Shown: positions 39,083 to 57,590 of the stretch, in pieces
Layout: each line of letters opens with the position of its first letter
How positions within the stretch are numbered: position 1 is the stretch's first letter
IMG/VR virus record: IMGVR_UViG_3300002514_000011
Coordinates: 50,631 to 112,964 of that record
DNA from: a virus
DNA: 62,334 bases
Reading direction: 5' to 3' (one strand)
Notes under the pieces: generated by a model
What the model saw: the letters and a program-made list of their open reading frames with translations, nothing else
Database searches by the model: none
Told to the model about the DNA's origin: nothing
Position numbers and translations under genes: made by a program

Positions 39083-39442
39083 TTGAATATTACAACTAGA
39101 AGGTTAAGAGAGCTTATAAAAGAAGAGCTTGTAAAGGAACAAATCGACCAGCCATTCCGAACCGGCCTCTCTGATGAAGATATCCGCAGCGGCGCCGCCT
39201 TCGATAAGCCCGTGACAGAGCCAGAAAGGCTTGGCGATATGCTCGCAGCAGCAATGGAAGGCGGAATCCGGGATGTCTTGCAGTCAGAATTTGGTGACGA
39301 AAGAGGCATGGAAATATTCGATAGACATCTGGCCGATCTTGATGAAGATATTTTAAACATTGCCATGAGGATGAGAGATGCAGCATTAGATTTAGCTGGA
39401 GAGCCAGAGGGCGTCCTGAGCACCGGCGAGGGAATGCTATGA
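39083..39442 (+). CDS. Small internal-head-protein candidate with targeting-like N-terminus
   Basis: The 119-residue product starts at TTG, supported by GGAGA seven bases upstream and the fit of its N-terminus to neighbouring proteins. That N-terminus, NITTRRLRELIKEELVKEQ, is the first copy of a motif repeated through this region (basic, then hydrophobic-x-Glu-Glu-Leu). T4 internal head proteins carry a similar capsid-targeting sequence that gp21 cuts after (Leu/Ile)-x-Glu. The remaining 90 residues are acidic and helical (LAAAMEGGIRDVLQSEFGDE), rich in Ala, Glu and Asp. Its stop overlaps the next ATG (ATGA). A packaged head or prohead-core protein is the best inference; no named family is recognised. 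Confidence 0.6.
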   Translation: MNITTRRLRELIKEELVKEQIDQPFRTGLSDEDIRSGAAFDKPVTEPERLGDMLAAAMEGGIRDVLQSEFGDERGMEIFDRHLADLDEDILNIAMRMRDAALDLAGEPEGVLSTGEGML

Positions 39443-40731
39443 AAAATAGAAAACTAAACCAAATGATCAAAGAAGAACTTGGAAAGGCATTACGCGAAGG
39501 GCCAGCAATGGACGCGAAGCGAGAGCGCGATGCTAGATACGGAGTCGTTGATCATAACCAGCCTGGGATGGAATCGCAGAAGCCGGTACCGCCAGACCAC
39601 GGCGATACCGGAGACACCGGCGCCCCGCCGATGGTGGACTCGGCGCCTCTTGTTGATCCGGTACCTGAAGAGGGAATAGATCTCATGGATCTCATCACCA
39701 AAGCAGTGGAAAAGTATGGCCCATCGGTCAAACAAGGTATTCTCAGCGTCCTTAGTCAGGCCGCCGAAGGTGCCTCTAAAAGAGCAAGAGAAGGAAGTTC
39801 AAGTTATATGAACCCTCACCCAACAACCACCTTGGGAGGAGCACCACACGGTCCGATGTCGCATCCGGACCACATGGAAGAGCGGCGACACATTAAAGGA
39901 AACCAAATAATGAAAAACAAAAAATTAAACCATATGATCGCCGAAGAGCTTTCAAAAGCATTAAATGAGCAAGTGCCGCCAATGCCGCCCATGGGCGCAG
40001 GCTCCGTTGGTCCTCAAGACCGCGGGCATATCGGCGGAGGTTTAGGCGGCGCGCCCCCCGGCCCTCCCGGCACCGGACTTGAAGGCGCCGTTATGGACGC
40101 AATACAGGCTCTGGAATCGGGAGATTCAGCAGGAGCGCTCGCAGCACTTAAGGGTGCCGTAGGTGGCCCAGTCGGCCCACCCCCTCGCCCTCCCGGCGAT
40201 GGCCGCCGGCTTTCGGACCCCAACTTTCCCGCCCCGATGCCCGGCCCCCCAGGACTGCCTCCAGGTAGAAGAAGGTCTCTATACGAAATGGAGATGATGG
40301 GTCACGATCACGATATGGAGTCTGACGAGGACGAAATGGAAATGGATGATATGGAGTTTGTTATGGGAGGCGGAGGAGAAGAGACGCATGGTGACCATCA
40401 GGAAAGCGATTTAGAAGGATTAGCATCCGCAGCCATGGCCGCAGTTCATCAATTAGCTGCAGCAGCAGGAGCAGAACTGTCCACATCCGTCGCCACCGGA
40501 GATGACATGGGAGATGATATGGACGAATCACCTTGCCCGTCCGATGAAGAAGAGCTTGAAGAAGGTTCCGGAGATCGTAATGATCCAGATCGCGAACAGG
40601 GCCATGGCAACCAAAGACAGCGCCCCGGCTCTCGCGGAAACCCAGGCAAACTTCAGGAATCGAAAGACCCCTTTAGGAGAATGAAACAGCTTGCGCTTGG
40701 GTCTTATGGTAGCACAAAATTTGAGGATTAA
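39439..40731 (+). CDS. Two-module head-protein candidate (in-frame fusion)
   Basis: The 430-residue ORF contains two similar starts. Residues 1-21 (MKNRKLNQMIKEELGKALRE) and 158-178 (MKNKKLNHMIAEELSKALNE) are copies of the targeting-like motif, with similar DNA. The second has its own ATG at 39910 behind AAAGGA, so it could also start translation. The first module ends in a helical stretch (about 75-110). The second is rich in Pro and Gly, holds the segment AVMDAIQALESGDSAGALAA and then highly acidic Met/Asp/Glu runs and Ala-rich helices. Low complexity and acidity resemble prohead-core or scaffolding proteins. It may be cleaved by the prohead protease at its Leu-x-Glu and Ile-x-Glu sites. 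The function is inferred from motif and context. Confidence 0.6.
   Translation: MKNRKLNQMIKEELGKALREGPAMDAKRERDARYGVVDHNQPGMESQKPVPPDHGDTGDTGAPPMVDSAPLVDPVPEEGIDLMDLITKAVEKYGPSVKQGILSVLSQAAEGASKRAREGSSSYMNPHPTTTLGGAPHGPMSHPDHMEERRHIKGNQIMKNKKLNHMIAEELSKALNEQVPPMPPMGAGSVGPQDRGHIGGGLGGAPPGPPGTGLEGAVMDAIQALESGDSAGALAALKGAVGGPVGPPPRPPGDGRRLSDPNFPAPMPGPPGLPPGRRRSLYEMEMMGHDHDMESDEDEMEMDDMEFVMGGGGEETHGDHQESDLEGLASAAMAAVHQLAAAAGAELSTSVATGDDMGDDMDESPCPSDEEELEEGSGDRNDPDREQGHGNQRQRPGSRGNPGKLQESKDPFRRMKQLALGSYGSTKFED
39895..39912 (+). promoter_or_regulatory. Internal ribosome binding site and ATG
   Basis: AAAGGA at 39895-39900 precedes an in-frame ATG at 39910 by nine bases, inside the ORF at 39439-40731. 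The ATG opens the second copy of the targeting-like motif, as if a separate gene had been fused in frame to the one before. A shorter product of 273 residues is therefore likely in addition to the 430-residue one. Confidence 0.5.
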
Positions 40732-40733
40732 AC

Positions 40734-41996
40734 ATGAAATTGTCTAGACAATTGCTTAAGCAGTTAATTGCAGAAGAAAAAGCCAAATTAAATGAGCAGT
40801 GTGGCGTTATGCCATCGCAAGGTCTTATGGTTGGTCACGAAATGGAACAGGGCCCAGCCGTGCAGCATCCCTCCTATGCCGGCAGTGGCGATATGTCAAT
40901 GGCGGACGACCATAGCGATCAGGAGGGCCAAATGGCCCTTTCTCAATTACAGCAAATTATGAAAAATGCAGATATGCTTAAAGGAATTGTCAGCGAGGAC
41001 GACGAACTACAATCGTGGGTTCAGTCCAAATTAACAAAAGCTTCAGACTATTTAGATTCAGTAAGAGGCTTCCTTGAATATGAAATGATGCCCAATAAGG
41101 CCCAAGCAATTGCTTTACAAGAAGGAAATTTAAGCTTTTCAAAGAACCAGCTTAAGCAGATCGTCGCAGAAGAGCTGGCCACTCTTTCGGAACAATCGGG
41201 CGCCCGATCCTCTGCGACTGACAGCGGTGTTGATTCCGACTACCTCGCGTACCGCAACGCGGACCCGTACGAAGATTACTTCGACGAGGGCGGGCAGATG
41301 TACGATTTCGGGCCCGATGTGTCCACTCGCCGAGGAGCCCGCCAAGCTCGCAGAGCCGATCGCCGAGAACTTAGAAGAACGACTCCTCGTGAACCAGGAG
41401 GACTAAGCCAGGCCCTGAGTCAAGGCCGACAAGTACGCGACGATATTCGAGGTCAGCGAGCCCCAGGAGGGCTGAGGCAGGCCTTGGCCCAAGGCCGACA
41501 AGTACGCGACGATATTCGAGGCGGAACGGGACTAACAGGCCTGCAGCAACAAGCAAGACTCGGTCGTACAGGCCAATCATCCTCTTGGGAGCCGTCATTT
41601 GGCTCAGAATGGGAGTCAGACGATGATGCGCGCTTCGAAGCCTCCCCGCATTGGGTACAAAACATGCCAAATCAAGGCCGCGGCCAGACGACGGAAGCGG
41701 AGGATGATCAGTATCGTTGGGACACCATGCCCGATTGGGTGAAAGCGATACCCGATGGCCCGCCCGTAGAGCCCATCTCTGAACAACAATTGTTTGAATA
41801 TGGCCTAGCGCCCGGAGCTTCTTTGGGAGACGAAGGTCAACCATCTCCTCAAGATGTGCTTAGATCGTCCATAATGGACGCTATAGACCTTTTGAAGGCC
41901 GGAAACACAGAAGATGCCATAGGAACGCTGGAGGCGACTCTAGACGCCTATACGGGCTCCGGAGAGCTTGACAGTGCCGTACAAGACGAAGGGTAA
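40734..41996 (+). CDS. Head-protein candidate with two targeting-like motifs and tandem repeat
   Basis: The 420-residue product opens with MKLSRQLLKQLIAEEKAKLN and has a second motif copy at about residues 135-154 (FSKNQLKQIVAEELATLSEQ). Between them lies a helical segment, ELQSWVQSKLTKASDYLDSV, that I remember from other marine T4-like head-region proteins. After the second motif comes an Arg-rich, low-complexity stretch with a 23-residue tandem repeat (QGRQVRDDIRG twice). The C-terminal segment IMDAIDLLKAGNTEDAIGTL matches one in the preceding protein. The gene starts two bases after the previous stop and overlaps the next gene. DNA of the second motif is identical over 26 bases to a site at 49496. 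A packaged, protease-processed head protein is the inference. Confidence 0.58.
   Translation: MKLSRQLLKQLIAEEKAKLNEQCGVMPSQGLMVGHEMEQGPAVQHPSYAGSGDMSMADDHSDQEGQMALSQLQQIMKNADMLKGIVSEDDELQSWVQSKLTKASDYLDSVRGFLEYEMMPNKAQAIALQEGNLSFSKNQLKQIVAEELATLSEQSGARSSATDSGVDSDYLAYRNADPYEDYFDEGGQMYDFGPDVSTRRGARQARRADRRELRRTTPREPGGLSQALSQGRQVRDDIRGQRAPGGLRQALAQGRQVRDDIRGGTGLTGLQQQARLGRTGQSSSWEPSFGSEWESDDDARFEASPHWVQNMPNQGRGQTTEAEDDQYRWDTMPDWVKAIPDGPPVEPISEQQLFEYGLAPGASLGDEGQPSPQDVLRSSIMDAIDLLKAGNTEDAIGTLEATLDAYTGSGELDSAVQDEG
41151..41176 (+). repeat. 26-bp dispersed repeat within targeting-like motif (copy 1)
   Basis: These 26 bases, beginning CTTAAGCAGATCGTCGC, are identical to 49496-49521 in another gene more than 8 kb away. 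Both encode LKQIVAEEL within the recurring motif. Exact DNA identity, including third codon positions, suggests recent copying or recombination and not only protein-level conservation. Confidence 0.85.
41394..41531 (+). repeat. 69-bp imperfect tandem repeat (two units)
   Basis: Two units of 69 bases lie at 41394-41462 and 41463-41531. A 32-base core is identical in both (41421-41452 and 41490-41521). The unit is a multiple of three, so it adds 23 residues in frame, giving QGRQVRDDIRG twice. The identity of the core and the frame-preserving length point to a recent duplication inside the head-protein gene. Confidence 0.85.
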
Positions 41997-43905
41997 ATGC
42001 GTATATAAAAAGGATACAGGCGAGAAAGTTGGCTGCACAGATGGTTCTGTCAAAGATTATCTCGCCGCTCTTCATGCAAATGCAAACGAGGGATTAAATG
42101 TGGATATTAAAGGTTCTGATCTCATACAAGTTGTAGGCGAAGAGCTATCAAGGTTGCTGGCTGAGTGGACAGCACCAGGCCTCTCCGATATCGGAGACAC
42201 TATAGAGGATGCTGCCGAAACAGCCACATCTGACGAATTTCAACTCGGAAATGATCCAGAAGATTATGTTCATGTTATGCATGACCCCTCAAAACAGACA
42301 AGCGATCTTATGCGTCGAAAAGAATATAAGGGCTTTGAAGAAGGGAGCAAGTACCGGCACCTTCACGCCGCCGAGGACTATGCACACGATTATAGCGACC
42401 CAGAAGACATCGAAATAGGCGCCCATGGGCCCAGCCTAGGCGCAGTAGATCCAAATACGGGCGAATATCCTACTGAGTCCGATGTCGGCGCCCATCCCGA
42501 CTATCTTGAGGACGACGATCTGATCGGAGCTTGGGACCATTTGGGCCAGCGCTTCGCCGGCATCGAGGATGAAGAGACGCTCCGCGCAGCCATGTCAGAA
42601 GCAATGGGCGAGATCCGAGCACCAGCAAAAATGAGAATAGTGGATGTGGACACCGACTGTGACAGCAGCTGGGGATGTAGGGTTGTTGGAGAATTTTATG
42701 ACAATGCAGCGGGAAAGTGGTACCACGCTAGTTTTAGCCATATGGAGATGGACTCAATCCCGGATCTCAAGGCTGGCGACATAATCGAGTCCGGCCAAGT
42801 TGTTGGCCGGATGGGCGGTACCGGCGGATATGCTCCGCACTTACATTATGAAATGTGGGAGCCCGAAACAGACGAAGAGGGCAATAGAAAACTCTACACC
42901 GGATCTACTGCCGGCACAGGAGACTATGCCATTAAAGGCCGCCCGACTGGCATTTCTTGGAGCGAATTTCTCAAAGAGCGCCGAGCCATGGCCGCACAAA
43001 ACAGAGGAGAGATCCCCGAGAACGCACCATCAGAGCGAACCTACGCCTACGATCCAGAATCGGGCGAATATATCGAGACTACGCCACGAACTACAGTGAA
43101 CGAGGACAAGTTAACAAGGAACAAAAAAATGAACATAACAAAAGAACAGCTTAAGCGGATTATTAAAGAAGAGATGGCAAGAGACTCAAAGCTAGAAGAA
43201 ATTGCAGCAAGCCCTCCAATTTCAGATCCTCCTAGAATGGATGCATCTAGAGCCATACCGGCAGACTCTCGCCCGGCCGGCGGACCAACGCTTGGATCGA
43301 GTGTATCCTCTATGATGAAGAAGCTAGGTACTTCCGGCTCTACTACAGCAGCCTCAAAATTCCAAGAAAAGCCACTCCAGAGAGCAATGGATATGGTGAC
43401 GGATGTACTTTCCAAGGCCAATGAAAGAAAAAAGAGAGAATTCCTTGTAACGCTTCTAGATCAGCTTGGAATAGATCCACAGACCCTGTCATTAGCTAAA
43501 TCTGAACTTACAGCGCTGCAACAAGACCGCGGATCAGCTACACCAGGATTGGGTGACGAGCCAACATTACAGGAAGTTCGAACAAGTCTGGCCAGTATTA
43601 AACAGATTATCATGGAAGAGCTTTCCGTTGTTTCCGAAGGCGGCAAGATGGGCCACTATCACGGCCCAGGCCCCGGAAGAGGTGAGCCAGATGAACAAAT
43701 GTATGATATTCTCAAAGGTGAGCGACCTCCACCGCGCGCAAGAGATGTAGCTTCCTTAATGCCAACAGATAATACAGAAGCCAGTATGACTCCCAATTAT
43801 GAAAGAGAGGTTGAGCAGCTGGTGTATGACATGTCTTCTTCCGGAATGAACAAGGAACAAATAATGTCCATGGTTGAACAATCGTTAGACTTTTTGATGA
43901 AATAA
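41974..43905 (+). CDS. Multi-module head-region protein with M23-like peptidase domain
   Basis: I place the start at GTG 41974, seven bases after GGAGAG, giving 643 residues that begin MPYKTKGKCVYKKDTGEKVG, a Cys-containing N-terminal module I recall from marine phages. A TTG six bases upstream is the alternative. Residues about 43-64 hold a targeting-like motif (DLIQVVGEELSRLLAE). Residues about 225-300 resemble an M23/LytM metallopeptidase: SFSHMEMD, GDIIESGQVVGRMGGTGGYA and the HLHYE zinc/catalytic motif. The usual first zinc motif (HxxxD) is not at its normal distance; HAAED far upstream is a candidate. A new motif starts at residue 386 (MNITKEQLKRIIKEE) with its own ribosome binding site, and another lies near 540. 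It may be an internal virion peptidase or a lysis enzyme; both are inference. Confidence 0.62.
   Translation: MPYKTKGKCVYKKDTGEKVGCTDGSVKDYLAALHANANEGLNVDIKGSDLIQVVGEELSRLLAEWTAPGLSDIGDTIEDAAETATSDEFQLGNDPEDYVHVMHDPSKQTSDLMRRKEYKGFEEGSKYRHLHAAEDYAHDYSDPEDIEIGAHGPSLGAVDPNTGEYPTESDVGAHPDYLEDDDLIGAWDHLGQRFAGIEDEETLRAAMSEAMGEIRAPAKMRIVDVDTDCDSSWGCRVVGEFYDNAAGKWYHASFSHMEMDSIPDLKAGDIIESGQVVGRMGGTGGYAPHLHYEMWEPETDEEGNRKLYTGSTAGTGDYAIKGRPTGISWSEFLKERRAMAAQNRGEIPENAPSERTYAYDPESGEYIETTPRTTVNEDKLTRNKKMNITKEQLKRIIKEEMARDSKLEEIAASPPISDPPRMDASRAIPADSRPAGGPTLGSSVSSMMKKLGTSGSTTAASKFQEKPLQRAMDMVTDVLSKANERKKREFLVTLLDQLGIDPQTLSLAKSELTALQQDRGSATPGLGDEPTLQEVRTSLASIKQIIMEELSVVSEGGKMGHYHGPGPGRGEPDEQMYDILKGERPPPRARDVASLMPTDNTEASMTPNYEREVEQLVYDMSSSGMNKEQIMSMVEQSLDFLMK
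43116..43131 (+). promoter_or_regulatory. Internal ribosome binding site and ATG
   Basis: AAGGA at 43116-43120 stands eight bases before an in-frame ATG at 43129, inside the M23-like ORF. The ATG begins another motif copy (MNITKEQLKRIIKEE). A separate 258-residue C-terminal product is likely, and the layout repeats that of the internal start at 39910. Confidence 0.5.
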
Positions 43906-43953: not shown

Positions 43954-44073
43954 GTGCATACTTTTGAAACCGTGCCTCCAAGCTTATTGTTCGCGTTTAT
44001 TTGCGCCGGCTTGGCCCTATTTTTATTTGGGCTCTTCTGTGGCCTAATATCCAAAGATAAGGAGAGCGCGTGA
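43954..44073 (+). CDS. Tiny membrane protein ORF upstream of gp47/46
   Basis: A short open frame ends in TGA overlapping the next start as GTGA (44070-44073), the spacing typical of coupled genes. From GTG 43954 it gives 39 residues; from GTG 43972 it gives 33 (PPSLLFAFICAGLALFLFGL, then FCGLISKDKESA). The core is one clear hydrophobic helix followed by a charged tail, so it would be a single-pass membrane peptide. No strong Shine-Dalgarno sequence marks either start; GGGTGA lies five bases before the first. It could be a leader peptide that tunes translation of the following gene. The overlap and the membrane-like composition make it more than a random frame, but expression is unproven. Confidence 0.4.
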   Translation: MHTFETVPPSLLFAFICAGLALFLFGLFCGLISKDKESA

Positions 44074-47000
44074 AGTTTGCTCATATTGCGGACACGCATA
44101 TTAAAAATTTAAAATATCATTATGAATATCGAATTATTTTCGAACAATTATATGAACAGCTAAGAGAAGAAAAAGTGGATTGTATAATCCATTGTGGCGA
44201 TATTGCCCACACAAAAACACAAATTTCACCAGAATTTGTTGAAATGTGTTCGGACTTTTTTCGTAACCTAGAATCCATAGCGCCAACCTATATTATATTG
44301 GGCAATCATGATGGGAATTTAAAGAACAGTAGTCGACAAGATGCACTGACGCCAATTGTTGAAGCACTAAATCTATCCAATTTACACTTGTTGAAGAATT
44401 CGGGGGAAACGCACATTAACGATCAATTTTGTTTAAATGTATTGTCAGTATTTGATGAAGATAACTGGAGTAAGTCAACAGATACAGATAAAATTAATAT
44501 TGCCCTTTATCATGGTTCAATATCTGGTGTAAAAACTGATATTGGCTGGGTTATGGAGCACGGCGAACATGATGTCAAAATCTTTAATGATTTTGATTTT
44601 GCATTTTTGGGAGATATTCACAAAACTAATCAAACCTTAGATCTCAAGGGAAGGATCAGATATCCGGGCAGTACGATTCAACAGAATCATGGCGAGACAA
44701 ATGATAAGGGAATTCTTATTTGGGATATTCGTGATCGCTGGGATTGGGATGTAAAGCATGTTGCTTTTAAAAATCCAAAACCTTTTATTACAATTGAGTT
44801 AACTCCAAAGGGCAGAATTCCCAAGGGTACCAAAATTCCTAAAGGCGCCCGATTACGACTTGTTTCAAACAATAACCTTCCTCTAGCTCGCATGAGGCGA
44901 GCTGTTGACATTGCAAAACACCGCTTTCGTCCCGAGGCTATTACATTTCTGAACAGGGCGTCTGGACAAAGAGGAAGCGTCGACTCGCTAACAAACACCA
45001 TTGTAAAGGAAAATCTACGCGATACTGCTGTGCAAGAAAAGCTGATGCGCGAGTACTTGAAAGGTTATGAGGCCGACGAAGCTCTTTTGGAGCGCGTCCT
45101 ATCTCTTAACAGCAAATATAATCAAATGGCGGAAGAAGAAGAGGAGGTTAGTAGAAATGTTAATTGGAGACTTAAGTCTGTAAGATGGGACAATTTGTTT
45201 AATTATGGGAAAAATAATGTAATTGACTTTTCTAAGCTTAATGGCGTTGTTGGAATCTTCGGAAAGAATTACAGTGGAAAAAGCAGCATCATTGATTCTA
45301 TCTTATATACGATGTTCAATTCAACTTCTAAAAATGAGCGTAAAAATTTAAATGTTATCAATCAAAACAAGCAATCTTGTTTGGGAGAAATTGATATTTC
45401 CATCGGCGACAAGACTTATAAGATTAGTAGAAATTCTGAAAAGTATATTAAAAGACTAAAAGGCGAAGAAACACTAGAGGCAAAAACAGATGTAAATTTT
45501 GAGTATACGGATGAAGCAACCAATATTACTCAAAGTCTTAACGGTTTGAGCAGAATAGAGACAGATAAGAATATTCGTAAAAAGTTTGGAACTCTAGATG
45601 ATTTTTTGTTGTCCTCTATGGCCAGTCAATTAGAATCGCTAACATTTATCAATGAAGGTTCCACTAGGCGTAAAGAAATTTTAGCCAAATTCTTAGATTT
45701 AGAGATATTCGAAAAGAAGTACAAACTAGCCAAAGAAGACGCTAGTGATTTGCGTGGTGCACTAAGGAGATTGCAGAATAGAGAGTTTGATGAAGACATA
45801 GCCGCGGCAACGATTGAGCTATGCGAAAGCGAAGACAACATATCAGAACACAAAAGCAAGTGCGAGACATATCAGTTTTCGATCGACAAGATAGCCGAGA
45901 AATTAGCAAAGATTGAGCTTGAAATTGGTTCAATTCCGGTTGAAATTATTGATATTGTAAAAACAAAAAGTGAAATAAAGAAATTAAAAAATCAACAAAT
46001 GTCACTACAATCAAAAATTGTTGAAGATCGACAAGATTTAAAGATAAGAACTGAGCTTTTTGAGAAAATTGTTAACTTTATAGACAATATAGATATCGAA
46101 GAGTTGGAAACGCAAAAGAATGAGATCGTATCGCTCAACAATAACATCGAAAATATGCAAAAAGAGATAGATAGCGCCAATAAAAAGGCGAAATTACTTG
46201 AAGGAATTCCTTGTGGCGATTCTTTTCCAAAGTGTAAATTCATTAGAGATGCAAATATTGCTGTTGCATCCATAGAGCACGCAAAGAGCGAACTCGACAC
46301 AGCAACAAGTAGCTTAAAAAGTATAGATCCGGATACGGTATTAAGGCATATTGATAAATATAATAACATTTTAAAGAAAAAGACAGAGGTTTCAACCAAG
46401 ATAGCCGAATTGAACCTCTCTATCGAAAGAAATACGAATTTGTTGGAAAAGATATCAAATAATTTAATTGATTTAAACGAAAAAGTAACAGAATACGATA
46501 AAAATAAGAAAGTTATTGATAATCTTGAATCGTTGATTGCTAAATCTACTAAGATGAAGGGCAAAACAGCAAAATTAGCCGCGGAGAAGAACGCATGCGA
46601 GGAAAATCTCACCAGCCTGTATGTCGAACACGGCTCCTTGGAACAAAAATTGAGAAATTTAGAAGAGCAAAAACAGGAATATCATAACTTGCACGATGAA
46701 TACTCGGCTTTTGATCTTTATATGCGCTGTATGCACTCGAACGGTATTGCATACGACATTATTAAGCGAAAATTGCCAATTATCAACGAAGAGGTAGCTA
46801 AAACACTAGCAAACATCGTTAATTTTGATATATATTTTGAAGACGATGGAAAAAAACTAAACATCTTCATCAAACACCCAAGACACGACCCTCGACCAAT
46901 TGAAATGGGCTCCGGAGCAGAAAAAACTATCGCCTCTATGGCAATTCGCATAGCTCTATTGTCTGTTTCGAATTTGCCAAAGGGAGATCTGTTTGTTTTG

Positions 47001-47180
47001 GACGAGCCCGGTACCGCACTTGACGCTGAAAATTTGGAAGGGTTCATTAGAATTTTAGATATGATTAAAAGTTATTATAAGACCGTATTATTGATATCAC
47101 ACATGGATACGCTCAAGGATAATGCAGACATAATCATCGATATTGATAAAAAGGAGGGATATGCACATGTCAGATATTAA
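44070..47180 (+). CDS. gp47-gp46: Single-chain Mre11-Rad50 (SbcD-SbcC) nuclease-ATPase, gp47-gp46 fusion
   Basis: One 1036-residue frame, starting at GTG, joins two proteins that are separate in T4. Residues 1 to about 345 are the Mre11/gp47 phosphoesterase: HIADTHI, HCGDIAH, LGNHDG, then LYHGS and GDIHKTN. After an acidic linker (MAEEEEEVSRN), from about 364, comes Rad50/gp46: Walker A GIFGKNYSGKSS (about 395-406), coiled coils around a hook-like CGDSFPKC (about 714-721), the ABC signature GSGAEKTIASMA (about 948), Walker B DLFVLDEPGTALD (about 972) and LLISHMD. The complex resects DNA ends for recombination-dependent replication. The combined length is near the sum of T4 gp47 and gp46. All catalytic motifs are present and there is no stop or frameshift between the halves. 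Confidence 0.93.
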   Translation: MKFAHIADTHIKNLKYHYEYRIIFEQLYEQLREEKVDCIIHCGDIAHTKTQISPEFVEMCSDFFRNLESIAPTYIILGNHDGNLKNSSRQDALTPIVEALNLSNLHLLKNSGETHINDQFCLNVLSVFDEDNWSKSTDTDKINIALYHGSISGVKTDIGWVMEHGEHDVKIFNDFDFAFLGDIHKTNQTLDLKGRIRYPGSTIQQNHGETNDKGILIWDIRDRWDWDVKHVAFKNPKPFITIELTPKGRIPKGTKIPKGARLRLVSNNNLPLARMRRAVDIAKHRFRPEAITFLNRASGQRGSVDSLTNTIVKENLRDTAVQEKLMREYLKGYEADEALLERVLSLNSKYNQMAEEEEEVSRNVNWRLKSVRWDNLFNYGKNNVIDFSKLNGVVGIFGKNYSGKSSIIDSILYTMFNSTSKNERKNLNVINQNKQSCLGEIDISIGDKTYKISRNSEKYIKRLKGEETLEAKTDVNFEYTDEATNITQSLNGLSRIETDKNIRKKFGTLDDFLLSSMASQLESLTFINEGSTRRKEILAKFLDLEIFEKKYKLAKEDASDLRGALRRLQNREFDEDIAAATIELCESEDNISEHKSKCETYQFSIDKIAEKLAKIELEIGSIPVEIIDIVKTKSEIKKLKNQQMSLQSKIVEDRQDLKIRTELFEKIVNFIDNIDIEELETQKNEIVSLNNNIENMQKEIDSANKKAKLLEGIPCGDSFPKCKFIRDANIAVASIEHAKSELDTATSSLKSIDPDTVLRHIDKYNNILKKKTEVSTKIAELNLSIERNTNLLEKISNNLIDLNEKVTEYDKNKKVIDNLESLIAKSTKMKGKTAKLAAEKNACEENLTSLYVEHGSLEQKLRNLEEQKQEYHNLHDEYSAFDLYMRCMHSNGIAYDIIKRKLPIINEEVAKTLANIVNFDIYFEDDGKKLNIFIKHPRHDPRPIEMGSGAEKTIASMAIRIALLSVSNLPKGDLFVLDEPGTALDAENLEGFIRILDMIKSYYKTVLLISHMDTLKDNADIIIDIDKKEGYAHVRY

Positions 47181-48498: not shown

Positions 48499-48884
48499 TG
48501 AGCAAGAAAGATTTAAATTATATTGCAAAAGTTGAAAAGGCGATAGCAGAAAAGTATGGACCAGAAACAATACAAAATCCCAAAAGCTTGTGGACCAAGG
48601 AAAAAGAAGAACAATATATAGAACAATTAAGGGAACTACAAAAAAAGTCTGATTTACTTCAGGAAAAAGTTGAAAAGATTGAATTTAATGGTTTTTTAAT
48701 ATCTAAAAAGCTACTTAATAAGGGCGGTAATCGTACTTGTACAACTTGTAATACATATTCGTTTGACAGCAAAGACGATGTTTATATGAACAAGTTTAAT
48801 TGCTGCTTTAAATGTTATATACAACATGTTGAAGATCGAGAAGAAAGATGGCTATCTGGCTGGCGCCCAGGAGAAAATATATGA
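48498..48884 (+). CDS. Zinc-ribbon-like protein of unknown function
   Basis: The start is ATG 48498, overlapping the previous stop by one base (TAATG); a longer frame reaching 48420 lies inside the upstream gene and is not needed. The 128-residue product has a helical N-terminal half (KVEKAIAEKYGPETIQ, a Glu/Lys coiled coil) and a C-terminal four-Cys site: CTTC near residue 80 and CCFKC near residue 107. This is a plausible zinc ribbon, followed by HVEDREERWLSGWRPG. I recall this family as widespread in marine T4-like phages, without a known function. It overlaps the next gene as ATGA. Confidence 0.7.
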   Translation: MSKKDLNYIAKVEKAIAEKYGPETIQNPKSLWTKEKEEQYIEQLRELQKKSDLLQEKVEKIEFNGFLISKKLLNKGGNRTCTTCNTYSFDSKDDVYMNKFNCCFKCYIQHVEDREERWLSGWRPGENI

Positions 48885-50029
48885 GTAAAAAAATAAATGA
48901 ATATAGCGAAGAAAACGAGCAGTCCCGTATGCCAAAGTCGCCACAAGAGAGTATGGAGGCCAGAGTAGCAGAAGCGATAGATTTACTTAAGAGCATGTCT
49001 AACGCGCTCGATGCCTTGGTTTATTATGCAACACCTAGTCGTAGTCCTGCCACAGCCGGCCTTGAAAAATCAATCGGTTCGTCGCTAACTCAGCTTGGTA
49101 GCGGATTATCTGAGAATCAAATTAAAGGTTCCGATCCTAAGCAGAGGGTAGAAGAGAGGTACGGACTCCGCCAAGACCAACGCGCCACCAAGCGCCAACC
49201 GGCTAATGTACGGAGTAGTGTTACGGATGTAATGTCGCAAGGATCCAACCGCGATCTGTTAGGGCGATCCGAATACCGCGCTGATGTGGAACAAGGAGAT
49301 ATAGGGACCAGCGAAAGAACGACTCAAGGAACTGGAACGACCCCAAGGACAAGTGCAGAATTGTGGCAAGGAGGGGAACTTGATGCTGTCCGTCGCCCCG
49401 GGATGCAAGATGTTTCTGGTGACGAGTGGACCACCGCCATGACAGACCTGTCCGGCCATGGCTTCGCCGAATCGACCCAAATTAAAGGTTCCGAACTTAA
49501 GCAGATCGTCGCAGAAGAGCTTGAAAAGAACCTATACGAACAGCAAAAACATGCCTTGGGCGGACCCAGCAATCCTTATGAGAAATACTCTATACCAAAT
49601 TTAGTTTCGCTAACAGGAGATACCCCGGAAGATATAGTGCAGGAAATGCAGGAGGCCGGAATTGAAATTACAGACGAGACAGCCGCCCGGGCAGCTATGA
49701 ATGCTGGAGTTGTTGATGACGATTTACCAGATTTTGTTGATGCAATTATGGAAATTGCTCATCACGGTGATACTATGCTTCATGAAGGCCGCTCAAACAG
49801 AGTTAGAGCCAGATGGAAAAGCCCGCTCTCGGAGCCTTTGTACGAAATGATAGAACAATCAGTTGAGGCTTCCGGAATTGGCGGCTTGGGCAAGATGTGG
49901 GAATATGATAGAATTTTGGTCGACGAGGTCGATGAGTGGTTTGCTGAGGGGCACTTTGGCGAAGACCCGGAAGAATTTGAGCGAGCAAAGATGGAAGTAT
50001 TTCAATATGTAAAGGCGATGTTTCCATAA
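48881..50029 (+). CDS. Head-region protein with targeting-like motif copies
   Basis: The start is ATG 48881, with AGGAGA eight bases upstream and an ATGA overlap. The 382-residue product begins with a conserved-looking helical segment (PKSPQESMEARVAEAIDLLK, then SMSNALDALVYYA). Two motif copies follow: a degenerate one near residue 80 (QIKGSDPKQRVEER) and a full one near residue 200 (QIKGSELKQIVAEELEKNL). Their DNA shares the start AAATTAAAGGTTCCGA. Between them is a low-complexity Arg/Gln/Thr region with no clear fold. The C-terminal 180 residues form a separate helical domain ending in FQYVKAMFP. Motif and context suggest a packaged head protein processed by gp21, as for the genes at 39083-43905. 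Confidence 0.58.
   Translation: MSKKINEYSEENEQSRMPKSPQESMEARVAEAIDLLKSMSNALDALVYYATPSRSPATAGLEKSIGSSLTQLGSGLSENQIKGSDPKQRVEERYGLRQDQRATKRQPANVRSSVTDVMSQGSNRDLLGRSEYRADVEQGDIGTSERTTQGTGTTPRTSAELWQGGELDAVRRPGMQDVSGDEWTTAMTDLSGHGFAESTQIKGSELKQIVAEELEKNLYEQQKHALGGPSNPYEKYSIPNLVSLTGDTPEDIVQEMQEAGIEITDETAARAAMNAGVVDDDLPDFVDAIMEIAHHGDTMLHEGRSNRVRARWKSPLSEPLYEMIEQSVEASGIGGLGKMWEYDRILVDEVDEWFAEGHFGEDPEEFERAKMEVFQYVKAMFP
49496..49521 (+). repeat. 26-bp dispersed repeat within targeting-like motif (copy 2)
   Basis: This copy is identical to 41151-41176 and encodes LKQIVAEEL. It lies in a different gene, separated from the first copy by the Mre11-Rad50 and lysis-like genes. Confidence 0.85.
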
Positions 50030-50875: not shown

Positions 50876-52462
50876 ATGACATATCAACTTTCAAAAGAAG
50901 AGGTTTTGAAAGAAATTGTAAAATGCGGAAAAAACTCCAGCTATTTCTTAAACAACTATGCCAGGATCTCACACCCCCAAAAAGGCCTAATACCGTTTAG
51001 AACATACGATTTCCAGACGGACCTCTTAAAGAACTATAATGACCATCGGTTTACGGTCATATTAAAGGCGCGCCAGCTTGGCATATCTACGATTACAGCA
51101 GGATATGTTGCTTGGCTTATGATGTTTCATCGTGACAAAAATATCTTGGTTGTAGCTACAAAGTTTGGCACGGCGTCTAACTTAGTAAAAAAAGTTAAAG
51201 CAATCTTAAAAAGAATTCCGCGTTGGTTACAAATTTCTGATATATCAATTGACAATAGAACTTCCTTTGAGCTTTCTAACGGTTCACAGATTAAAGCCTC
51301 TTCCACCTCCGGCGATGCCGGCCGATCAGAGGCTCTTTCCTTATTGGTCATTGACGAGGCAGCTCATGTCGAGGGCTTAGAAGAGCTGTGGGCCGGCCTA
51401 TATCCTACTCTTTCTACTGGTGGTCGATGCATTGCTTTATCCACACCAAATGGTGTTGGAAACTGGTTCCATAAAATATACACAGAAGCAGAATTAGAGG
51501 AAAACGAGTTCCACCCGGTTAACTTGCGATGGGATGTACATCCAGATCGCGATCAGACATGGTTCACCCGCGAAACAAAGAATATGTCTCGCAGAGAAAT
51601 TGCCCAAGAGCTTGAATGCAATTTCAATACTTCTGGTGAAACAGTAATTCACCCAGATGACATAGCTTGGATCGGAACTACTACAAAAAATCCCGAATAT
51701 AGAACCGGTTTTGATCGAAATTTTTGGATTTGGGAAAAATACGATCCGGCCAACACTTACTTGCTCGTCGCCGATGTTGCCCGCGGCGATGGCCTGGACA
51801 ATTCAACATTTCATATATTTAAATTAGAAACAATGGAGTTGATCGCAGAGTATCAAGGAAAGCCGAGCCTAGATCAGTATGCAAACATTTTATTTCAGGC
51901 TGGATCCGAATTTGGTAATTGTCTGCTGGTTGTCGAGAATGTTGGCGTCGGCATTTCAGTGCTTGAGAAGCTAATAGATTTAGAATATTCTAATTTATAC
52001 TTCTCTATAAAGAGTTCACACGAATTTGTCGAGCAATATCAGGCAGAGGCAATAACGAATTCGGTACCGGGATTTACCACTTCAACAAAAACAAGACCAA
52101 TTATAGTTGCTAAACTTGAAGAATTCATAAGAAATAAACTAATTACTATATATTCACAAAGAACTTTTAAGGAAATAACAACTTTTATTTGGTATAACGG
52201 CAAGCCACAAGCTATGCGCGGGTATAACGATGACCTAATCATGGCTTTGTCGATCGGCTGTTGGGTTAGAGATACCGCTTTACAAGTTAACAAAAGAGAG
52301 TTAGAATACAAAAAGGCTTTATTAAATTCTATGATAGTTTCGAACACCACAATAAATACGACGGTAAAAGGTATGCAAGGCTATAAGAGAGAAGAAGATT
52401 TAGATCGATTTGACAAAGCAAAAAAAGAACATGAACAATATAAATGGCTTTATAAGGGTTAA
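50876..52462 (+). CDS. gp17: Large terminase subunit, T4 gp17-like
   Basis: The 528-residue protein is the DNA-packaging motor ATPase and nuclease that loads DNA through the portal. ATPase motifs: Walker A variant Lys64-Thr72 (KARQLGIST) and Walker B LLVIDEAAH with Asp160-Glu161, followed by the coupling motif ALSTPNG. Nuclease residues: Asp300 in LLVADVARGDGLD, Glu354 in VVENVGVG and Asp452/Asp453 in YNDDLIMALSI. T4 gp17 is about 610 residues; this one is shorter, mostly at the N-terminus. The small subunit gp16 was not recognised upstream. It stands two genes after a conserved head-region protein and three bases before the portal gene, the usual arrangement. Confidence 0.95.
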   Translation: MTYQLSKEEVLKEIVKCGKNSSYFLNNYARISHPQKGLIPFRTYDFQTDLLKNYNDHRFTVILKARQLGISTITAGYVAWLMMFHRDKNILVVATKFGTASNLVKKVKAILKRIPRWLQISDISIDNRTSFELSNGSQIKASSTSGDAGRSEALSLLVIDEAAHVEGLEELWAGLYPTLSTGGRCIALSTPNGVGNWFHKIYTEAELEENEFHPVNLRWDVHPDRDQTWFTRETKNMSRREIAQELECNFNTSGETVIHPDDIAWIGTTTKNPEYRTGFDRNFWIWEKYDPANTYLLVADVARGDGLDNSTFHIFKLETMELIAEYQGKPSLDQYANILFQAGSEFGNCLLVVENVGVGISVLEKLIDLEYSNLYFSIKSSHEFVEQYQAEAITNSVPGFTTSTKTRPIIVAKLEEFIRNKLITIYSQRTFKEITTFIWYNGKPQAMRGYNDDLIMALSIGCWVRDTALQVNKRELEYKKALLNSMIVSNTTINTTVKGMQGYKREEDLDRFDKAKKEHEQYKWLYKG

Positions 52463-52465
52463 TAA

Positions 52466-54478
52466 ATGGCAAGAAGACCATCAATAAAAAATCGCAGAAA
52501 CAATAATCCCAGGAACCAAGAGTCAGAACTCTTTAGGAGACTGACAAGGCTCTTCTCTGGGCCTATTATTAATTACAGGACGCAGAATATCCGCCGCTAC
52601 CGCCGGCGTCACTTAGACAAATTTAAATTTAAGTCTGCTAGCGGAAAAACATTTAAAAAAACTGATAATAACCCTTTTGCTGCTTTAGAAGCAGATTTGA
52701 TGGCGAATCAAAACCGCCAACATCGATATTCAGACTTTGATCAAATGGAGTATACTCCAGAAATTGCCTCGGCTATGGATATATATGCCGACGAGATGAC
52801 CACTTCTAGTGACTTAAAGGCAATGTTGAATGTTGTGTGCCCGAATGAAGAGATAAAGGTGATATTGTATAATCTTTTTATCAATATCCTTAATGTCGAG
52901 CACAACTTGTTTGGTTGGTGTAGAACAATGTGTAAATATGGAGATTTTTTCTTATACCTGGATCTCGACGAAGACATGGGAGTGAAAGCAGCGATCGGCC
53001 TTCCTCCTAATGAGGTCGAGCGGCTTGAGGGAGAAGACGACTCAAATCCTAATTATGTACAATTTCAGTGGAATTCAGGCGGCCTAACCTTTGAAAATTG
53101 GCAAATTGCTCATTTTCGTATATTAGGAAATGATAAGTATGCGCCATATGGTACTTCAATTTTAGAGCCCTCACGCCGGATCTGGCGCCAATTAACAATG
53201 TTGGAAGACGCAGTGATGGCGTATCGCATTGTCCGCTCTCCAGAGCGCCGCGTATTTTATATTGATGTTGGTGCGATCCCGCCAGAAGATGTAGAACAAT
53301 ATATGCAAAAAGTGATGACACAAATGAAGCGCAATCAAGTGATAGATCCAGACAATGGCCGTGTAGATCTGCGCTACAATCCAATGAGTGTAGAAGAAGA
53401 CTATTTTATTCCTGTGCGGGGAGGATCTTCTTCTAAAGTTGAAAACCTTCCCGGAGGAACATATACGGGAGACATCGACGATATCAAGTATTTGAGAGAT
53501 AAGCTTTTTTCTGCTTTAAAAATTCCTCCGTCCTATTTGTCTTCAACCGATGAGGGCGGCGAAGATAAGACCACATTAGCACAAAAAGATATAAGATTTG
53601 CCAGAACAGTCCAGCGCCTTCAGCGTGTCCTGATTTCTGAACTAGAAAAAGTCGGGATCATACATTTGTATACTTTAGGCTTCCGCGGCGATGATTTATT
53701 AAGTTTTAAATTACGACTTAATAATCCCTCAAAAATTGCTGAACTTCAAGAACTTGAACACTGGAAGCAGAAATTTGATGTAGCCGCCTCCGCGACCGAA
53801 GGTTTCTTCAGCCGCAGATGGATATCTCAAAATCTCTTCAGTATGGACGAGGAAGAATTTGTCAGGAATCAGCGAGAGATGTATTATGATAAGAAATTTG
53901 AAGCAAGTCTTGAAGTCGAGGCAGAGGCAATTGTCCAAGCCGGCTCTGTTGAGGCCGAGGCGGATGCGATGGAAATCGCCGAAGAAGAGGGTTTAATGGA
54001 CGAAGCTCCCCCAGAAGAAGGCGGTGAGGCTCTACCAGAGGAGGGCGCCGAAGTGCCAATGGAGGAGGCCGGAGAAGAAGACATGCTTTTGGCTGAGCCC
54101 GGCAAGCGGGATATCGATGGGAACCCAACGATGAGGCGAAAGCGTATACAAAAATGGACAGAGCGGGCCCCTGGTCATCGTGACGAAGGTACCACAACGC
54201 CAGCCTCAAAAGGTAAAGTATACTATCCAACAATAGTCGACAATCGTTCTTCCGGAGCCTTCCATAGACACCAGCTGGCCCAGGCCGGCGGAGGGCGCAC
54301 CGGCATCGGTCTGGACGATCCGCTTGCAATGGATAGCCTAATGACTGCTGCTCATGGGATTTATGAAGAAAAGCAGACTATTTATAAAGAAGAGGAAAAG
54401 AAACTTTTTCAAGTTAATCAAGAAATGAAAAAGCTTATTGAGGATTTGGAGAAACGGCATGCCCAGAAGAAAACATAA
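52466..54478 (+). CDS. gp20: Portal vertex protein, T4 gp20-like
   Basis: This 670-residue protein forms the twelve-fold portal ring where DNA enters and the tail attaches. Portal features are DQMEYTPEIASAMDIYADEM, WCRTMCKYGDFFLYLDLDED, HFRILGNDKYAPYGTSILEP, RIWRQLTMLEDAVMAYRIVR and SPERRVFYIDVGAIPPEDVE, followed by KIPPSYLSSTDEGGEDKTTL and the helical stem. The N-terminus is Arg-rich. T4 gp20 is about 520 residues; the surplus is an acidic low-complexity C-terminal tail from about 490 (runs of Glu, Ala and Pro) and a final coiled coil. The end overlaps the next gene by 20 bases. It follows terminase and precedes gp21 as in other T4-like head clusters. Confidence 0.95.
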   Translation: MARRPSIKNRRNNNPRNQESELFRRLTRLFSGPIINYRTQNIRRYRRRHLDKFKFKSASGKTFKKTDNNPFAALEADLMANQNRQHRYSDFDQMEYTPEIASAMDIYADEMTTSSDLKAMLNVVCPNEEIKVILYNLFINILNVEHNLFGWCRTMCKYGDFFLYLDLDEDMGVKAAIGLPPNEVERLEGEDDSNPNYVQFQWNSGGLTFENWQIAHFRILGNDKYAPYGTSILEPSRRIWRQLTMLEDAVMAYRIVRSPERRVFYIDVGAIPPEDVEQYMQKVMTQMKRNQVIDPDNGRVDLRYNPMSVEEDYFIPVRGGSSSKVENLPGGTYTGDIDDIKYLRDKLFSALKIPPSYLSSTDEGGEDKTTLAQKDIRFARTVQRLQRVLISELEKVGIIHLYTLGFRGDDLLSFKLRLNNPSKIAELQELEHWKQKFDVAASATEGFFSRRWISQNLFSMDEEEFVRNQREMYYDKKFEASLEVEAEAIVQAGSVEAEADAMEIAEEEGLMDEAPPEEGGEALPEEGAEVPMEEAGEEDMLLAEPGKRDIDGNPTMRRKRIQKWTERAPGHRDEGTTTPASKGKVYYPTIVDNRSSGAFHRHQLAQAGGGRTGIGLDDPLAMDSLMTAAHGIYEEKQTIYKEEEKKLFQVNQEMKKLIEDLEKRHAQKKT

Positions 54479-56245: not shown

Positions 56246-56264
56246 GTGCGGGTCGCGCCCGCAC
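56246..56264 (+). promoter_or_regulatory. GC-rich hairpin upstream of gp21
   Basis: GTGCGGG and CCCGCAC form a perfect seven-pair stem with a TCGCG loop, immediately before the AAGGA ribosome binding site (56266-56270) of the protease gene. No T-run follows, so it is not a standard terminator. It could set mRNA stability or protease level. Confidence 0.6.
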
Positions 56265-56275
56265 CAAGGAAAAAT

Positions 56276-56881
56276 ATGGGTAAAAAACTATTAAGAGAGT
56301 ATTATGAATTATGTGACGGCGGCTCTTGTCCTGATGTTTTAACTGAGTCGGAAAAGAAGTTTGTCTCCGGCGGAGGGGTTATATTATCTGGAAAATTACA
56401 GGAAGCTGACGCAAAAAACGGTAATGGCAGAAAATATCCCAAGCATATATTAGAGAGGGAAATGAAAAACTATCAAAAGTTGATAGATGAAAGACGCGCC
56501 CTAGGAGAACTCGACCATCCTGAAGATTCCGTAATAAACCTAAAAAATGCATCTCACTGTGTAACGGAAATATGGTGGAAAGGTCCAGAAGTGCATGGAA
56601 AAATTAAAGTCCTGAACACGCCTTCCGGAAGAATCCTGCAGGAGTTAGTAAAAGAGGGTATAAAATTGGGAATTTCCTCTAGAGGCCTGGGCTCCGTTAA
56701 GGAAGAAAAGGGGAACACTATAGTAGAGGATGACTTCCAGCTTATTTGCTTTGATATGGTGTCAGAGCCATCGACGAACGAGGCCTTTATGATAAAAGAA
56801 GCAAAAAGTCACGAATCAAACATCTTTACAAAAGCAGATCGGATCAATCGTGCCTTAAATGACATCTTAAGAGAAGAATAA
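56276..56881 (+). CDS. gp21: Prohead protease, T4 gp21-like
   Basis: From ATG 56276 (AAGGA five bases upstream) the product has 201 residues; an in-frame GTG at 56246 lies inside the hairpin and is rejected. The serine protease shows its catalytic set: His81 in GELDHP, Ser134/Ser135 in LGISSRGLGS (or Ser140) and Asp160 in ICFDMVSEPS. GKLQEADAKNGNGRKYPKHI and WKGPEVHGKIKVLNTPSG are family features. gp21 digests the prohead core and trims capsid and internal proteins after (Leu/Ile)-x-Glu before DNA packaging. T4 gp21 is about 210 residues. This protease is the likely processor of the repeated motifs at 39083-43905, 49470-49540 and 56881. Confidence 0.93.
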   Translation: MGKKLLREYYELCDGGSCPDVLTESEKKFVSGGGVILSGKLQEADAKNGNGRKYPKHILEREMKNYQKLIDERRALGELDHPEDSVINLKNASHCVTEIWWKGPEVHGKIKVLNTPSGRILQELVKEGIKLGISSRGLGSVKEEKGNTIVEDDFQLICFDMVSEPSTNEAFMIKEAKSHESNIFTKADRINRALNDILREE

Positions 56882-57345
56882 TGAACAAAAATAATTTAAA
56901 ACAAATGCTAAGACCTCTTATAAAAGAATGTATAAAAGAGGTCATATTTGAAGAAGGACTTTTGTCCGGAATCGTGTCCGAAGTACTTGTCGGGGTTCAT
57001 AATTCCGGCACCACGCCACTGACAGAGGTCACAGTCTCGTCGCCGACTCCATCACGCGAGTCACAAGCGCAAAGAGAACAAGAGAGGTTGCGCCACGCAG
57101 AAATAGCCGATCGTGAGCGCCGAAGGAAAATTGTAGAAACAAAGCATCAAATGTCTCAGGCAGTAAATAAAAGTAAAAAGTCTTACAACGGAGTCAACCT
57201 CTTTGAGGGCACGGAGCCTTTGGCTAAAGGTGGAACTACTTCTCCCGCGGCAACAGCCCCGGGCGCCCTGGCTGGCGTAGACCCTAGCGACTCTGGCGTT
57301 GATATATCTGCGTTTTTTAATGCAGGGGCAAATTGGAGTAAATAA
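56881..57345 (+). CDS. Prohead-core or internal head protein candidate
   Basis: The 154-residue product follows gp21 with a one-base overlap, the position of scaffold gene 22 in T4. Its N-terminus, NKNNLKQMLRPLIKECIKEV, then IFEEGLLSGIVSE, is related to the targeting-like motif, with possible gp21 sites at Ile-Lys-Glu and Ile-Phe-Glu. The middle is a charged coiled coil (REQERLRHAEIADRERRRKI) and the C-terminus is Gly/Ala/Ser-rich and flexible. Similar N-termini occur after gp21 in marine T4-like phages as I recall. It is too short to be a full scaffold (T4 gp22 is about 270 residues). A core-protein role is inferred from place and motif. Confidence 0.62.
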   Translation: MNKNNLKQMLRPLIKECIKEVIFEEGLLSGIVSEVLVGVHNSGTTPLTEVTVSSPTPSRESQAQREQERLRHAEIADRERRRKIVETKHQMSQAVNKSKKSYNGVNLFEGTEPLAKGGTTSPAATAPGALAGVDPSDSGVDISAFFNAGANWSK

Positions 57346-57590
57346 TGTCTAGAGGAGCAAATGTAACAATAAAGCCATTCAGAAGGAATGACTCGCAAGA
57401 AAAAATGATCAGAAGATTCACTAAAAAGGTTAAAAAACTTGGACTTATTGAAGAAATTAAAAGAAGAAGAAGATACGAAAAGCCATCTGATCGTAAGCGA
57501 AGGGAAAAGATTGCTCAAAAAAGAGCAGTTGAAAGAGCAAAACAAAAAGCAAAAGCAAGAAAAGCGACTAATTATAAACGCAGAAAATAA
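57345..57590 (+). CDS. rpsU: Ribosomal protein bS21-like protein
   Basis: The 81-residue basic product contains the bS21 signature: a strand NVTIKPFRRND, the helix EKMIRRFTKKVKKLGLIEEI and RRRRYEKPSDRKRREKIAQK. Bacterial bS21 binds the 30S subunit near the anti-Shine-Dalgarno end and helps initiation. Phage copies are known from several marine and large phages and are thought to favour phage translation by replacing the host protein. It is slightly longer than typical bS21 (about 55-71 residues), with a Lys/Arg-rich tail. It overlaps the upstream gene by one base (TAATG) and precedes virion genes, so it would be made late with them. No other translation genes are present. Confidence 0.88.
   Translation: MSRGANVTIKPFRRNDSQEKMIRRFTKKVKKLGLIEEIKRRRRYEKPSDRKRREKIAQKRAVERAKQKAKARKATNYKRRK

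Follow-up and report, generated by a model that had tools for sequence, protein, structure and literature searches.

What is the short peptide motif that recurs in proteins encoded near the head genes of the virus record IMGVR_UViG_3300002514_000011? The stretch analysed here, referred to as the window, comprises bases 50631-112964 of that 112,964-base record (62,334 nucleotides) and contains a T4-type head region, with genes for the terminase large subunit, the portal protein gp20 and a gp21-type prohead protease. A sequence-only reading of this DNA had interpreted the motif as a capsid-targeting sequence, cleavable by gp21 and carried by one large family of head proteins. The targeting part of this interpretation agrees with the N-terminal position of the motif, its conservation at the protein level, its [LI]xE sites, its co-occurrence with proteases of the S77 family and the placement of its genes, whereas packaging and cleavage are what we infer from these features; the family part has to be abandoned, as hundreds of unrelated protein families follow the motif. 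In our best reading, the motif is a capsid-targeting propeptide ("tag") of a large clade of marine T4-like phages.

The motif in the window and in related viruses

A six-frame scan places in-frame plus-strand copies at 39104, 39454, 39925, 40755, 41151, 42121, 43150, 43597 and 49496, with weaker matches at 56855 (the C-terminus of gp21) and 56932 (just after gp21). The pattern [LI]xx[LIVM][ILVM]xEE has 11 matches in the seven proteins counted as motif-bearing (starts at 39083, 39439, 40734, 41968, 48848, 56246 and 56881), compared with a mean of 0.13 (maximum 2) in 5000 residue shuffles, and only two in the 23 other window genes with their almost sevenfold larger number of residues (15,990). 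A profile built from other viruses only recovers nine copies at 3.2 to 34.5 bits, two of them weak when taken alone (3.2 and 9.5 bits). The motif noted earlier is therefore real, although the profile does not recover the copy proposed at 56881, at most a degenerate form. The claim that L-x-E often follows the motif is borne out, with [LV]xE coming after eight of the nine profile-found copies (all except that at 39104).

Three of the nine copies lie at gene starts (39083, 39439 and 40734) and six inside longer open reading frames (ORFs). Two of the latter, at 39910 and 43129, have an in-frame ATG preceded by a Shine-Dalgarno-like sequence (AAAGGA and AAGGA, respectively) and may therefore start separate proteins, while those at 41136, 42106, 43585 and 49481 are truly internal and lack a start codon. 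The idea of several copies in one chain accordingly stands for these four copies and is weakened for the other two. In locus L222, moreover, the counterparts, among them that of the second tag region of the 430-amino acid (aa) protein, form tagged genes of their own, which suggests fusion or regrouping. The multiplicity per chain is thus partly explained by in-frame starts or by the joining of genes that each had a tag. Other loci, too, contain internal copies, as does gp079 of Flavobacterium phage immuto. Two internal copies located in different genes of the window share 26 identical bases (41151-41176 and 49496-49521), a sign of recent within-genome copying or gene conversion. The first 51 kb of the record, outside the window, contain only weak profile matches (up to 8.8 bits); one of them, a weak N-terminal tag candidate at 8.8 bits, belongs to a 304-aa frame at 10255-11166 (L155/G000) that starts MSMRRHLIKKIIREELAAAAKQRG.

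Across related viruses the tag conforms to the consensus M-K-[IL]-T-K-x-Q-L-[KR]-x-I-I-[KR]-E-E-[LKI], with L-L-x-E as a frequent continuation. A degenerate DNA pattern for QLKRIIKEE occurs in 73 stretches of the viral collection, as opposed to none for the reversed peptide, and the pattern for QLKQIIKEE yields at least 120 matches. In 271 searched loci, from part of which the seeds were drawn so that the profile is not blind to them, 704 matches reach 10 bits, compared with one in reversed ORFs; in 67 random viral loci (583 kb) no match reaches 7 bits. A start codon occupies tag position 1 in 650 of the 704 matches (92%). This is a fairer figure for the start position than that of the seeds, which were picked with Met near the expected place and show it there in 98% by construction. 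A Shine-Dalgarno-like sequence precedes 573 of 649 tagged starts, versus 213 at a control offset. Identity within loci is 59% at third codon positions and 81% at first and second ones; the tag is conserved at the protein level. Its helical moment exceeds that of shuffled sequences, and an amphipathic helix is predicted. Large records contain many tags (E up to 0.01): 40 in G017, 30 in G044, 28 in G002, 26 in G019 and 21 each in G006 and G016. A tblastn search of phage records with the 22-aa tag returned nothing, which is unsurprising given the length of the query.

Pattern matches were also encountered in bacterial-genome contigs, one of which is phage-like. The tag-rich 101,404-base contig PBIO01000025.1 (L367, G016) is both a virus record and part of a Halobacteriovorax metagenome-assembled genome, possibly a hint at the host or possibly a binning error. 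The conserved DNA tatgaatggattagcaac stands directly before the ATG of tagged genes in L249, L255, L307, L352 and other loci, as if upstream DNA and tag had travelled together. A search for T4 late promoters 5' of tagged genes found no enrichment of TATAAATA.

The carriers are highly diverse. With the first 24 residues removed, the 604 tagged proteins that reach 60 aa are divided by single-linkage BLAST into 415 families, including 346 singletons, a family count that homology beyond the reach of BLAST would reduce; a single homologous family of tagged proteins was rejected on this basis. An alignment of 141 representatives shows the tag conserved and essentially nothing conserved behind it. 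Pfam and PHROGs name very few of the 141 proteins; the domains seen among tagged proteins are pentapeptide repeats (L125), L,D-transpeptidase (L290), exonuclease (L330), AAA/polynucleotide kinase and EF-hand motifs, and none of the few named cargoes belongs to replication-fork or tail families. An 889-aa chain from a relative (L009) combines three motif copies with an SLT transglycosylase domain. The M23 peptidase domain found in the window, the SLT domain and other cargo domains might be expected in proteins that act on the host during entry. Tag-like sequences at the C-terminus were noticed in two ORFs, one in L015 (10584-11957, LEQLIKEELLRVLNEKK), close to gp21, and one in L315 (4308-5159, LPKDQLKQIIKEELIKILTK).

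The gp21-type protease, putative cut sites and gene order

The gp21 homologue predicted at 56276 is indeed encoded in the window, by a Peptidase_S77 ORF that begins at 56246 (table 1) and scores 105 bits against a curated PF03420 cut-off of 27. The tag would be the expected substrate of this protease. In T4, the first 65 residues of gp23 are cut off by gp21, as are short peptides at the N-termini of internal proteins (PMC9958956). In the clade studied here, the Glu aligned with position 65 of T4 gp23 is invariant, mostly within LLRE followed by A or S. Two stretches of a comparable kind are found in the tag. One is I12-x-E14, which hardly varies apart from its middle residue; the other is [LI]xE at residues 20-22, present there in 31% of tags but in only about 1% when later offsets are examined. 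Behind the core, 372 of 560 tags contain [LIVM]xE, whereas shuffling gives a mean of 154. Similar starts can be recognized by eye in T4 proteins (MLKEQLIAEA in gp22, MAKINELLRES in gp24, ITEA in IPI).

Among 68 records picked by tag patterns alone, 35 encode an S77 protease, including 17 of the 19 that reach 100 kb; the corresponding figures for random records are 1 of 26 and 1 of 6. Four of the 33 tag-selected records without the protease (G028, G033, G040 and G064) end within or shortly after the portal gene. In the other 29, neither a T4-, HK97- or SPP1-type portal nor a terminase above cut-off turned up; as far as the searched families show, these are fragments without the head region. The sequence-only reading had proposed looking for the motif in phages that lack gp21; among the 68 records there is no clear case of a tag-bearing phage without it, G016 being doubtful.

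With the gp21 start as zero point, the 110 distinct loci examined carry 0.3-1.0 tags per kb between -10 and -7 kb and almost none across the terminase and portal (-6 to -2 kb). Tag density then takes values of 0.35, 0.18 and 0.15 per kb between -1 and +2 kb and is close to zero farther out. Some of these loci were picked by tag patterns, a choice that raises the absolute densities but does not account for the gaps. Tags hence occur beside gp21 and upstream of the terminase; no terminase, portal or tail gene bears one. In T4, the slots flanking gp21 are occupied by the core genes 67, 68 and 22. The clade's gene before the capsid gene, that is, in the gp22 position, ends like DPxxxRMKxLAGIK; such a C-terminus is found in 32 of 12,748 distinct ORFs, among them the double-tagged 430-aa protein of the window, and a tagged 553-aa protein of L251 has the same scaffold-like ending.

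Capsid targeting, its rivals and known systems

What, then, does the tag do? We consider it probable that it binds a core component and so brings its protein into the prohead, that gp21 cuts it off, and that the cargo enters the host with the DNA. The N-terminal 20-22 residues or so, the predicted amphipathic helix, would direct unrelated proteins into the prohead core during assembly; cleavage would take place after I-x-E (residues 12-14) and/or L-x-E (about residues 20-22) and would free the cargo inside the head ahead of its ejection. Recombination would move the tag from gene to gene and thereby allow dozens of different proteins to be loaded by a single genome. In the window's sub-lineage, tags inside longer chains with wall-degrading domains may represent internal-ATG starts or cleavage marks. 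A bolder version, for and against which we see about equal weight, is a modular head-import code, in which the recombining tag of this widespread clade could turn almost any gene product into virion cargo, dozens of proteins from hundreds of families (20-40 kinds in the larger genomes) would be injected per particle as an effector-delivery repertoire, and internal tags would give rise to polyproteins split in the head in some members.

Several observations speak against capsid targeting. Some copies are internal or C-terminal, which is unexpected for an N-terminal address, and the second LxE is missing from some tags. In G016 (101 kb, 21 tags) no S77 or portal gene was detected, and the terminase trace near the contig end is below threshold. 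The protease does not require the tag, because many S77 phages are untagged, as exemplified by T4 itself, cyanophage P-TIM40, Caulobacter phage Cr30, Stenotrophomonas phage RAS14 and Vibrio phage VH7D. Finally, packaging and cleavage of the tagged proteins are deduced from sequence features.

The main rival is a role restricted to the prohead core, with the tagged proteins joining the scaffold and being degraded by gp21, as are T4 gp22, gp67 and gp68, and nothing of use being delivered. The tags in genes flanking gp21, the scaffold-like end of one tagged protein and the comparable I/L-x-E stretches at the starts of T4 core proteins all fit this scenario; yet dozens of unrelated proteins per genome, some enzyme-like or with pentapeptide repeats, exceed the needs of a scaffold, and the majority of tagged genes sit in arrays distant from gp21, so we regard it as rather unlikely. 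The distance of many tagged genes from the head genes would be compatible with a tag that binds some other phage hub, such as the transcription or replication machinery or a membrane site, for which the indirect nature of the case for packaging also leaves room. We hold this to be improbable in view of the link to S77, the gene slots beside gp21, the cleavage-like I-x-E and L-x-E pattern and the lack of replication-fork and tail families among the few named cargoes.

A still smaller chance is given to the repeat being a DNA-level element (a recombination or translation-start cassette) with the peptide as a by-product. It would account for tatgaatggattagcaac before some tagged starts and for the 26 identical bases in two window copies, but the peptide is kept while codon choice varies, and internal copies without start codons exist; a DNA-level repeat without peptide function was rejected on the codon-position comparison. 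Coincidence in charged, helical proteins, for which nothing speaks beyond that very character of the motif, is hardly credible, being refuted by the shuffles (11 versus 0.13 expected in the window), the reversed ORFs (704 versus 1) and the empty random viral loci.

Capsid targeting as such has precedents. The T4 capsid-targeting sequence (CTS) of internal proteins (Mullaney and Black 1996, reviewed in PMC9958956 and PMC5694885) resembles the tag in being short and N-terminal, in its I/L-x-E cut pattern, and in being served by an S77 prohead protease encoded by a gene adjoining that of gp20. Like a T4-type CTS, the tag is N-terminal, stands on unrelated proteins, contains I/L-x-E and is encoded together with an S77 protease. 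However, the T4 sequence is about 10 aa long and common to IPII and IPIII only (PMC9958956), whereas the tag has about 22 aa, occurs on up to 40 proteins per record and has internal copies; the tag profile finds no match in T4, so homology at the sequence level is not apparent. In the giant phages SPN3US and phiKZ, a prohead protease likewise strips N-terminal propeptides from many head and ejection proteins, and the paralogues gp53 and gp54 have 15 N-terminal residues in common (PMC5694885, PMC10052503). These propeptides mostly exceed 100 aa, use A-x-E sites and rarely share their starts, as opposed to the common tag of about 22 aa with I/L-x-E, which differs from the giant-phage type in both length and site. 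The N-terminal 30 residues of P1 DarB suffice to send a reporter into the capsid, but this signal is described on one large protein, and no tag shared by many proteins is reported in the same paper (PMC9024508).

The closest cultured gp21 is that of Flavobacterium phage immuto (NC_055915; 44% identical over 85%). As in the window, there are N-terminal and internal copies, since immuto gp080 starts with MKKSQLRQIIKEAL and gp079 carries a copy internally, but they are few and weaker, with one profile match at E 0.003. A literature search found no virion proteomics of immuto. Several variants of the tag strings were also searched for in an incomplete collection of papers, in which sequence figures are not searchable, and no paper was found to contain them. 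While capsid-targeting sequences of T4 and P1 and giant-phage propeptides are already known, the novelty here lies in the scale, in two sites within one tag, in copies inside chains and in a sequence without detectable homology to T4.

If this reading is right, the 22-residue tag marks those of the many unknown genes of abundant marine phages whose products reach the host right at the onset of infection, where they would probably serve counter-defence and takeover, and provides a simple sequence rule for mining phage-delivered proteins, with hundreds of families here alone. The recruitment of internal proteins by T4-type heads could also be tested in a natural system with many replicates.

Other features of the locus

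The features discussed above are listed with their coordinates in table 1.

Table 1. Tag-bearing genes, tag copies and head genes in the window (positions counted from the first base of the window).
Feature	Position	Strand	Remarks
119-aa protein, TTG start	39083-39442	+	N-terminal tag (LNITTRRLRELIKEEL); L222 relative also tagged
430-aa protein	39439-40731	+	N-terminal tag, second tag inside, scaffold-like C-terminus
Tag 1 of 430-aa protein, MKNRKLNQMIKEELGKALRE	39439-39498	+	18.3 bits
Tag 2 of 430-aa protein, MKNKKLNHMIAEELSKALNE	39910-39969	+	12.4 bits; ATG after AAAGGA, possible internal start
C-terminus of 430-aa protein, DPFRRMKQLALGSYGSTKFED	40666-40731	+	Like clade scaffold end (DPxxxRMKxLAGIK)
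420-aa protein	40734-41996	+	N-terminal tag, shared domain, internal tag
Tag 1 of 420-aa protein, MKLSRQLLKQLIAEEKAKLNE	40734-40796	+	18.2 bits
Internal tag of 420-aa protein, FSKNQLKQIVAEELATLSE	41136-41192	+	18.4 bits; no start codon
645-aa protein	41968-43905	+	Three motif copies and M23 peptidase domain
Internal copy in 645-aa protein, IKGSDLIQVVGEELSRLLAE	42106-42165	+	3.2 bits, weak
Peptidase M23 domain	42610-42861	+	PF01551 E 1.8e-8; between copies one and two
Tag in 645-aa protein, MNITKEQLKRIIKEEMARDSKLEE	43129-43200	+	34.5 bits; ATG after AAGGA, possible internal start
Internal copy in 645-aa protein, SLASIKQIIMEELSVVSE	43585-43638	+	9.5 bits; no start codon
393-aa protein with internal tag	48848-50029	+	Related to multi-motif SLT protein of L009
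Internal tag of 393-aa protein, IKGSELKQIVAEELEKNLYE	49481-49540	+	13.6 bits
Terminase large subunit	50876-52462	+	Context gene, untagged
Portal protein, T4 gp20 type	52466-54478	+	PF07230 E 6.6e-77; context gene, untagged
gp21-type prohead protease, Peptidase_S77	56246-56881	+	PF03420 E 3.5e-30
154-aa protein right after gp21	56881-57345	+	N-terminus at most degenerate tag (NNLKQMLRPLIKECIKEVIFEE)

A gp23-type major capsid protein was searched for in the whole virus record and not found; the record may be a fragment. The 154-aa protein has homologues in 89 loci. Two genes past gp21 lies a gene for ribosomal protein bS21 (57345-57590, plus strand; PF01165 E 1.4e-10); bS21 genes are also encoded by Bacteroidetes phages (PMC9723584), and Microcystis phage Mel-JY01 has a like arrangement. 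A domain of the 420-aa protein (40905-41084, plus strand) recurs in immuto gp079 and in cyanophage proteins with genes close to those for the terminase (T4-GC 119 in S-SM2). The structural part of the window includes two very long plus-strand frames, at 3515-11536 (2673 aa) and 15554-26599 (3681 aa). A 1036-aa frame on the same strand (44070-47180) resembles, by eye, a fusion of recombination nuclease and ATPase (T4 gp47 and gp46 type), with the strings HIADTHI, GDIAH and GNHD and, later, GKNYSGKSS.

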